Assembly: GCF_000219625.1 (NCBI RefSeq)
Contig: NC_018218.1
Location: 1,798,001 to 1,862,000 of the forward strand
DNA length: 64,000 nucleotides
Reading direction: 5' to 3'
From: Zymoseptoria tritici IPO323
Taxonomy: Eukaryota > Ascomycota > Dothideomycetes > Mycosphaerellales > Mycosphaerellaceae
Shown here: positions 26,971 through 29,900 of the stretch, piece after piece
Position numbering within the stretch: position 1 is the stretch's first letter
Layout: every line of letters begins with the position of its first letter
Notes under the pieces: model-generated
What the model was told of the DNA's origin: nothing
Database searches by the model: none
What the model saw: the letters and a program-made list of their open reading frames with translations, nothing else
Position numbers and translations under genes: made by a program

Positions 26971-29900
26971 ATGGCTTCTTACACATCATCTCTTCGCCAT
27001 GCTCTCGTTGGCATCGTGATGGGGTGTGCAGGTCTGGCCAGTGCCCTGGATACATGCAGCGTGGAACGACAGACTGTTCACGAACAGATTGTCTCGGTCA
27101 ACACGGAGGTGCTGAGCAATACGACGTTCTACCCCGTTCCGGAGGTCGCAGTCACCATTACAAATGCGCCCACCAGCCTCGACGGCATTACCACGTTCCG
27201 ATGGACCGAATCACCCAAGATAACATGGGGCCCGACGTTGACTTCACTCGCGTCAATTCCGCAGAGCCTCGAGAGCCTGGCGACAGCCGCAAGTGACCTC
27301 GAAAATACCTCATTCATTCTCATGGTCCTGAGATCCGACGGGCTTCAAATCCGACAGCAGGGAGATGTAAGTCTTGAAAAGGTTGACATCCATTCGTCGA
27401 CTGATATGGCTGCCACAGGTCTACATGGGAGCTAATGGGACGACCTCCAATGACTGCACCGTATCGCCAATATACGCTATCACCAACGGCGTTCTCACCG
27501 CGACGATGAACGGCGTCAGATATACCTACTCCACTGCTCCTGGCCTGCCGTATGCCGTGTTCAACCCATCTACGGTGCCAGGTGCGATCACAACGTCCTT
27601 CGCACTGAGCGCCAATGGATATCTCATCTGGAGGAATGCGAACTTCTTCAACGGGCAAGCTGGATTCTGCGCGTTGCAGAACGGCACGGTATACGCAATT
27701 TTCCAACAGGATGCCCGACCGGATGGTTGTTTGTACATCAATCTGAGTCTCTTCGATGTGTCAAGCTGTCAAGCGTTGCAGCTTTCAACGATCACTGGAC
27801 CTACGGGCGTGAGTATCGTCGCATGAGCTGCGTGATGTATCATTGACTGACGTGATTAAGCCGACTGGACCACGAGGGCCTACTGATGAGTACCACGAAC
27901 TTCTACGTCTCAACGCAAGCTGACACAGCATACGCCCGACTGGTGCAGTTGGAAGCACGGGGTGTGTTCATGCGTTAGCTCCTCTTCATATGTAACGCTA
28001 ACACTTGTTCCAGGCCTCAGGATAAGTACATTCAAGTCTTACGATCGAAGAAAGAATATGCTGACATGGCCCACGCCCGACTGGCGCTGTTGGAAGCACG
28101 GGGTGAGTTCGCGCGGTTTCTGCTGTTCACACGTTACGCTAACACTTGTTCCAGCCCTCAAGATAAGTACATTCAAGTCTTGCGATCGAAGAAAGAATAT
28201 GCTGACATAGCCCACGCCCGACTGGCGCTGTTGGAAGCACGGGGTGAGTTCGCGCGGTTTCTGCTGTTCACACGTTACGCTAACACTTGTTCCAGCCCTC
28301 AAGATAAGTGCAGCGAGACCTTGCGGTCGGGGCAGATACTGACACCGCGCACGCATTCAAGGCGTACAGGGTGTACAAGGACAGACAGGAAGCGTAGGGT
28401 AATACATCGCCACAATCGTGTCCTCCACGTCCTCTACTAAAAGTTACCGCAGGCCTTCAGATAAGCACCCACATTTGCGCCTCACAACATTGATGACCCA
28501 CTGACACGACGCACGCCCTACTGGCGCCACCGGCAGCGTGGGGTGAGCTCTTGCAATCTCTTCTAGCGATGTAGTACGCTGACAGTCATCTAGGCCTACA
28601 GATATGTACACCCGATACCCTTCCCAACGACGATCAACTAACATAGCGCACGTCCGACTGGCATACAGGGAGTGCAGGGAAACGTGGGGTGAGCTCTCCT
28701 GTGGCTCATTGCTACCAATATGCTGACCCTCATCGCAGGCCAACAGATAAGTGCATCACGGATCCTGTCAACGATGAAGGACTGACACAACGCACGTCCG
28801 ACAGGAATCGTGGGGTAAGTCACCAGTGGCTTGTGCGAGAAATATGCTGACCTGTATCGAAGGCCAACAGATGAGTACTATCGATGTTCTATCAAAGACG
28901 AAAGACTAACGAGACACACGTCCGACTGGCATTCAGGGGAGCGTCGGAAGCGTCGGGTAAGCTCTGGGAGTTCTTTGCTGTCGGTGCTTCGCTGACGGTT
29001 ATTTAGCCCGTCTGATAAGTACAATCGATGACACTTCTGCGATGTCAGACTGACATGGCGCACGCCCGACTGGCACACAGGGCATACAGGGGTGAGTTGC
29101 TGATTGCTGTGGTGTATCCAGTTGAACTTTATGCTAACATATGTGACAGGCCTACAGATACGTGCAAAGCCCCCTACACTCTGTCTACGAAGACTGACAC
29201 CCAATCTACGTCCTACCGGTCAAAGCGTTGGTTTCTCTTTCTTGCGCGTATAAATAGCAGGAAGTATGCTGACTTTGCAAATAGGGTGCCATTGTACGGT
29301 TGCCTCCGCGGCATGTGACGATGAGGATGCTAATAGCGAATGCAGGGAGCCACAGGGGCGATAGGGCCAACGGTATATTGTACTTTCGCCCTGTCTTGTC
29401 ATGGAGACACTAACAGCAAGCAAAGGGCGCAACGGGCACGGGAGCCACTGGGGCGACAGGGCCAACGGTATATTGCACTTCTGCTCCAACCTGCAGGGCA
29501 TAAACTAATCCATTCACTGTGAAGGGTCCGAGTGGGGCCACCGTACGGCCACATCGAATCTCCCATCTCGTGATGAAGACACTGACAGCAAGCAAAGGGC
29601 GCAACGGGCACGGGAGTTACAGGACCGCAAGGACCACAAGGAGAGATTGGACCCACGGTATATTGAGCTTCATGCCACCCTACCGAACACCCACTAATGA
29701 ATCCATCATGAAGGGACCGCAAGGAGCAACCGGAGTCAGCGTACGAACACATCCAGCGTATATTGTATTGAAGACACTGACAGCGAGAAAAGGGGTCGCC
29801 GGCCGCCACATCATCACAACCATCATTCGTCTACAGCTATCTCGGCTGCTACGTGCATAGCGCCGTTGCAGGTGGCGATGGCAGCAAGGCACTCGATATC

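Follow-up and report, generated by a model that had tools for sequence, protein, structure and literature searches.

A tandem array of ten predicted U2-type AT-AC introns in a collagen-like gene of Zymoseptoria tritici

Two kinds of intron are described that begin with AT and end with AC. U2-type (type II) AT-AC introns have a donor compatible with U1 small nuclear RNA (snRNA) and a U2-type branch site. U12-type AT-AC introns have the same terminal dinucleotides, and the U12 consensus is given as donor ATATCC and branch site CCTTAAC in the excerpt of PMC3033335 available to us. In the same excerpt, 42 or more AT-AC introns of C. elegans, where the minor snRNAs seem to be absent, are suspected to be real. 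In fungi, AT-AC pairs are reported to make up 0.019% of 2,302,340 annotated splice-site pairs from 130 genomes (excerpt of PMC7072748). Here we describe ten predicted AT-AC introns within 1.3 kb of one collagen-like gene of Zymoseptoria tritici IPO323, where they alternate with GT-AG introns and 8-nt exons. The gene lies at 26971..30347 on the forward strand of a 64,000-nucleotide stretch of DNA (the window; NC_018218.1, positions 1,798,001 to 1,862,000); all coordinates without a contig name are positions in the window, on its forward strand. The introns resemble the U2-type class in their ends, U1-compatible donor and U2-type branch, and differ from the U12-type class in having neither the ATATCC donor nor the CCTTAAC branch. 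No cluster of U2-type AT-AC introns is described in the excerpts available to us, and no AT-AC array comparable to this one in the titles and abstract openings listed for the open-licence literature searched.

Other systems in which introns multiply offer a comparison. In the RNA-dependent RNA polymerase (RdRp) gene of potato, introns are reported to have been gained by tandem genomic duplication (excerpt of PMC4974935). Intron number appears to have been raised here likewise by tandem duplication of a segment, but what was copied would be whole exon-intron units with existing introns, one of them non-canonical. Introner-like elements of fungi are multiplying introns, found also in Dothideomycetes (excerpt of PMC4457414). 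In contrast to those elements, the introns of the collagen-like gene seem to have travelled with their exons, and no near copy was found outside the gene in a search with one unit, which missed diverged units. The exons of animal fibrillar collagen genes are multiples of 9 bp that keep the Gly-X-Y repeat, and they spread by exon duplication. The gene described here differs in that glycine codons are interrupted by its introns, some of which have AT-AC ends, and its exons are as short as 8 nt.

We confirmed the array of AT-AC introns, which a preliminary description of this DNA had proposed from the sequence. All ten introns were found where that description placed them, spanning 27886 to 29209. 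Each is preceded by G (10/10), is in phase 1 (10/10) and is 48-54 nt long. Introns 1 to 5 lie at 27886..27933 (48 nt), 28022..28074 (53 nt), 28163..28215 (53 nt, with an interior 96% identical to that of intron 2), 28304..28352 (49 nt) and 28461..28514 (54 nt). Introns 6 to 10 lie at 28602..28651 (50 nt, starting ATATGT), 28747..28795 (49 nt), 28871..28919 (49 nt), 29015..29063 (49 nt) and 29158..29209 (52 nt). A branch site, CTGAC or CTAAC (together CTRAC), is present in all ten. The spacing of about 10 nt between this site and the intron end, also part of the earlier claim, held in nine of the ten, in which the branch A is 10 nt before the last base; in intron 10, unlike the other nine, it is 12 nt from the end.

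The AT-AC introns are part of a repeated unit with the order exon, phase-2 GT-AG intron, 8-nt microexon, AT-AC intron; only AT-AC intron 1 has no microexon before it. The nine phase-2 GT-AG introns are at 27962-28013, 28103-28154, 28244-28295, 28399-28452, 28543-28593, 28689-28738, 28815-28862, 28957-29006 and 29092-29149. The nine microexons that follow them are at 28014-28021, 28155-28162, 28296-28303, 28453-28460, 28594-28601, 28739-28746, 28863-28870, 29007-29014 and 29150-29157. The AT-AC introns fall between the first and second bases of a glycine codon, the interleaved GT-AG introns between the second and third. Because both introns of a unit interrupt a glycine codon, removing both keeps the Gly-X-Y register intact. 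The combined lengths of exon and microexon are 36, 36, 36, 54, 36, 45, 27, 45 and 36 nt, multiples of 9 in 9/9 units.

The alternation of the two intron types at a distance of just 8 nt, together with an AG (a possible acceptor) before the AT in 7/10 cases, might suggest a stwintron-like nesting, in which a GT-AG intron splits the donor of an outer intron. We find this hardly credible. If the 8 nt were removed along with the introns, the frame would be shifted, since 8 is not divisible by 3, and the microexon is coding, and needed for the frame, in 9/9 units of the Gly-X-Y model.

The junctions were derived with a dynamic-programming parse of the Gly-X-Y tract. Glycine in every third codon scored +1, its absence scored -4, and stop codons were forbidden. 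Each intron cost 2.5 (4 for GC-AG) and could be 40-110 nt long. The parse recovered all ten AT-AC introns. Over 27797-29220 the best score was -44 when only GT-AG and GC-AG introns were allowed and -5 when AT-AC was added; the latter parse has 10 AT-AC introns and encodes 133 residues with no missing glycine. When each of the other 253 dinucleotide pairs was added singly, the best (AG-AC) gave -16. Dinucleotide shuffles of the sequence with AT-AC allowed (295 scorable of 300) scored -37.7 on average (standard deviation 4.3). Their maximum, -29.5 compared to the observed -5, rules out a chance origin of the AT-AC parse.

In the gene model, the automatic parse supplies the AT-AC block, whereas introns 1 and 22-30 were placed by hand. 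When run to 29794, the automatic parse also took a 107-nt AT-AC stretch (29327-29433) and other poor junctions. Beyond 29219 we set the automatic junctions aside and placed seven GT-AG introns of 52-58 nt by hand. The resulting model has 31 exons, 30 introns and an open frame of 601 amino acids.

We also tested each AT-AC site locally, with one alternative intron at a time. A GT-AG alternative that keeps the glycine register was found at 0/10 sites, and one GC-AG alternative at 5/10; this corrects the preliminary description, which had reported that seven of the ten had no AG that could rescue a GT-AG reading. Four of the GC-AG alternatives begin with the microexon's own first base, which would leave an exon of zero length, and the single usable one is 27878-27955.

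The copies of the AT-AC intron are constrained at their ends and diverged in between. Aligned with MAFFT, the ten introns span 54 columns, nine of which do not vary: A1, T2, G5, C8, the final A, the final C and three columns of the branch site. None of the invariant columns falls in the diverged interior, and the set is unchanged after dropping one of the two near-identical copies. The interiors are homologous nevertheless, with a median pairwise identity of 42% compared to a mean of 28% in 40 sets with shuffled interiors. Invariant ends with homologous but diverged interiors indicate shared descent, with divergence outside the splice signals. The most similar unit copies, at 27919..28309, were detected by Tandem Repeats Finder (period 141, 2.8 copies, 91% matches). 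A DNA search of the genome (39.7 Mb in 21 contigs, with the window on a contig of 6.09 Mb) with one 161-base unit matched three places, all inside the collagen-like gene; it found no unit copy outside the gene, and it also missed the gene's own more diverged units. The proposal that tandem duplication had spread the AT-AC introns is supported by this homology and by the lack of copies elsewhere in the unit search, and duplication of a two-intron unit appears clear from the sequence. All ten units carry an AT-AC intron, so it is simplest to place the change before the duplications, and the AT-AC intron would have arisen from a GT-AG intron by a single founding change of G to A and G to C.

These comparisons also bear on the possibility that the gene is decayed, with a collagen tract no longer expressed or spliced and AT-AC ends that are remnants. 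The deviating branch spacing of intron 10 is in keeping with decay. However, the 601-amino-acid frame runs uninterrupted from the ATG to the stop codon across 30 introns, and the intron ends are invariant despite the diverged interiors. We consider decay very improbable.

The splice signals of the AT-AC introns point to the major (U2) spliceosome. Counting G-U pairs, the donor can pair with U1 at positions -1 (10/10), +2 (10/10), +3 (10/10), +4 (8/10), +5 (10/10), +6 (9/10) and +7 (10/10), and not at +1 (0/10) or +8 (0/10). For comparison, the gene's 20 GT introns are U1-pairable at -1 in 14/20, at +5 in 16/20 and at +7 in 2/20. The C at +8 is invariant in the AT-AC introns (10/10), though unable to pair with U1. 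The CTRAC branch site is shared with most of the neighboring GT-AG introns. From splicing genetics, an A at the first position and a C at the last can replace G first and G last. We searched for a U1 gene that could compensate for the A at +1 and detected five U1 loci (41 of 596 candidates were scored). All five read ACCT at the pairing site and none matches A at +1, ruling out a compensating U1 gene among these loci. Adenosine-to-inosine editing was rejected because it would not convert the final C to G, and GT-AG introns on the opposite strand were rejected because they would read CT-AC.

Excision by the minor spliceosome, with the introns being U12-type, would account for the AT-AC ends and for the short, nearly fixed distance of 10 nt from branch to end. 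However, the ATATCC donor is found in 0/10 of the introns, CCTTAAC occurs in the last 25 nt of 0/10, and the branch site has the same CTRAC form as that of the GT-AG neighbors. The search for minor snRNAs covered U12 and U6atac; neither model gave a match in the genome, but the controls gave none either. In a survey covering more than 3000 genomes, no minor introns of Ascomycota were convincing (excerpt of PMC10639083). We regard a U12-type identity as extremely improbable. To the preliminary description, too, the introns had looked U2-type, and the donors (able to pair with U1 apart from +1), the branch sites and the missing ATATCC all agree with that reading.

On the evidence of the sequence, the interpretation best supported is that these are U2-type AT-AC introns which tandem duplication has multiplied. 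The gene would contain a tandem array of collagen-coding units, each with an exon, a GT-AG intron, an 8-nt microexon and an AT-AC intron. The AT-AC introns would be excised by the ordinary spliceosome, with U1 pairing to position -1 of the donor and to most positions from +2 to +7, and tolerating the A at +1. The CTRAC branch would act 10 nt from the end, and the first A and last C would stand in for the usual G and G. A founder unit would have held one AT-AC intron, which was copied together with the collagen exons. We think it very probable that this explanation, taken as a whole, is correct. The sequence strongly implies that the AT-AC introns are spliced, and we infer their actual excision, its dependence on the U2 spliceosome and their origin from GT-AG introns. 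A bolder proposal is that the AT-AC introns are a selected splicing class rather than frozen accidents, with ends that extra U1 pairing at -1, +5 and +7 and the near-fixed 10-nt branch spacing keep functional, and that output of full-length collagen is gated by how the major spliceosome handles AT-AC introns in a given cell state. We consider this unlikely.

Several results weigh against U2-type AT-AC introns multiplied by duplication. The gain in parse score from adding AT-AC was 39, compared to a mean of 21.1 in the shuffles (standard deviation 7.7), but the largest gain in a shuffle was 57.5; it is the absolute parse score, rather than the AT-AC gain, that stands apart from the shuffles. 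When all 256 dinucleotide pairs were free at equal cost, with introns of 40-70 nt, a mixed set of 20 introns, only 1 of them AT-AC, tied at -5. The initial claim that the Gly-X-Y frame alone fixes every junction was thus too strong. The AT-AC junctions are chosen because one pattern of donor, branch and acceptor recurs ten times, and not from the Gly-X-Y repeat alone. The three invariant columns at the branch site are not clean, as the aligner puts the branch box of intron 10 about four columns off. The computed U1 duplex is weaker on average for the AT-AC donors (-4.9 kcal/mol) than for the GT donors (-6.8 kcal/mol). In addition, the copies are related by descent, so that the ten introns are not independent tests and the excess of pairing at +7 may be inherited. 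The spliced form was absent among protein matches. A search with the N-terminal part gave 32 matches, of which the only near-identical entry was P0002, a database protein of Zymoseptoria tritici ST99CH_1E4. A search with the collagen tract and C-terminus found no spliced form among the best 120 of 7173 matches (7993 candidates scored); the top match was 51% identical over 67%, and the highest identity among the matches listed was 65%. Finally, in two neighboring units the AT-AC intron plus the next exon is an open 81 nt that is coding in P0002.

P0002 embodies the alternative that the deposited model is correct and only GT-AG introns are used. The AG that closes the microexon would then be an acceptor and the AT-AC stretches would be exonic, giving a protein of 343 amino acids with a short repeat, DKYIQVLRSKKEYAD.AHARLALLEAR. 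The existence of P0002 itself, in a cluster of 9 members, favors this model, as do the two open 81-nt units. However, the model drops the collagen tract and C-terminus that homologues retain. The AT-AC intron plus the next exon measures 76, 81, 81, 95, 82, 87, 68, 86, 77 and 69 nt in the ten units; the length is a multiple of 3 in 4/10 (81, 81, 87 and 69), about as expected by chance. Moreover, use of GT-AG introns alone leaves the invariant A1, T2 and final AC in ten diverged copies unexplained. We judge the GT-AG-only model improbable and read P0002 as a probable misprediction, in which two AT-AC introns were taken as exon and an early stop followed.

The predicted 601-amino-acid product has an N-terminus with DUF7908 (Pfam match, E 1.3e-32), a collagen Gly-X-Y tract (Pfam Collagen, E 7.8e-27) and a cysteine-rich C-terminus. 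Residues 1-262 are 100% identical to P0002. The tract lacks no glycine over 27797-29220; beyond this range it is interrupted twice in the 601-residue model, by one residue each time. Its downstream half (29227..29792) is modeled with the seven hand-placed GT-AG introns and no AT-AC intron. These are in phase 0 and lie at 29227-29284, 29294-29345, 29373-29425, 29468-29524, 29543-29597, 29658-29713 and 29741-29792. They form a repeated series of their own, with weak donors (GTATATTG, GTACGG).

The C-terminal region (29793..30347), which contains two GT-AG introns, is WSC-like by homology. It is 40% identical to P0004 (Cladosporium) and 37% identical to P0005 (Elasticomyces), both annotated in the database with DUF7908, Collagen and PF01822 (WSC). 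The region itself had no Pfam match up to E 1, and PF01822 is listed only for the homologues. Among the 31 homologues other than P0002 from the N-terminal search, the motif at the start of the collagen tract is present in 25, and four (P0004, P0005, P0006 and P0010) reach the C-terminal motif CWCGN. In P0004, P0005, P0006, P0010 and P0012, predicted proteins of other Dothideomycetes, the Gly-X-Y frame is lost; it is regained in all except P0012. There may be unrecognized introns in these genes too.

The U1 genes of this genome also contain introns. Four of the five U1 loci detected have one. In L002 (G000:C8:1375733-1375922), L003 (C4:2228546-2228727) and L005 (C1:802453-802550), all on the minus strand, the intron is in the gene body and is of spliceosomal type (GTAAGY...CTRAC...YAG); without it, the bodies align with the intronless L001. 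In L004 (G000:C1:4059634-4059792, minus strand) and L005, ATACTT is followed by a GC-AG intron with a CTAAC branch and then by ACCT, so that the sequence with which U1 recognizes the 5' splice site looks to be split by an intron. If so, the RNA that initiates splicing would itself have to be spliced when made from these two U1 genes. An upstream element, CCCGCTCCCGT, is common to L001-L003 and missing from L004 and L005, which could be pseudogenes. None of the titles listed in the literature searches deals with introns of U1 genes in fungi.

No relatives were confirmed in viral and genome contig collections. The genome has four DUF7908 loci; three of them, L010-L012, lie outside the window, span 3.3-3.4 kb each and contain no Gly-X-X run longer than three triplets. 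The one genome match to the collagen family, L013, was rejected as a short repeat (GMEGEN); this search missed the window's own tract, the exons of which are too short for it, and other intron-rich collagen genes could escape in the same way. The pattern GATAAGT...CTRAC...CAC had 19 matches in the genome, compared to 6 for the reversed pattern, and a pattern with GATGAGT had 17, compared to 11. The two recover only 2/10 and 0/10 of the window's introns, respectively, and therefore say little about AT-AC introns genome-wide. Eleven of the 19 GATAAGT matches were examined, after excluding two matches in the window, two overlapping duplicates and four repeat copies. L022 (G000:C13:314641-314697, minus strand) may be a solitary AT-AC intron; the gene that contains it encodes a small secreted protein of unknown function. 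The candidate at L021 is flanked by open frames of 111 and 87 codons, yet the sequence is open without splicing too. A near-identical 51-base stretch with the AT-AC pattern recurs at G000:C4:2321855, C5:170416, C6:2414461, C6:2505481 and C20:430837 and is probably part of a repeat element.

With AT-AC at about 2 in 10,000 of the annotated fungal splice-site pairs in the excerpt of PMC7072748, ten such introns in one gene are very unusual. If our reading is correct, they would be a natural test array for the tolerance of the major spliceosome for A at the first position and C at the last. They would also be matched natural variants in the same gene and the same cell, with GT-AG neighbors as internal controls, in an organism for which much RNA data is public. 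The array would further indicate that a non-canonical intron can spread via exon duplication, and that gene prediction that expects GT-AG introns would lose most of such a protein, here giving 343 rather than 601 amino acids.
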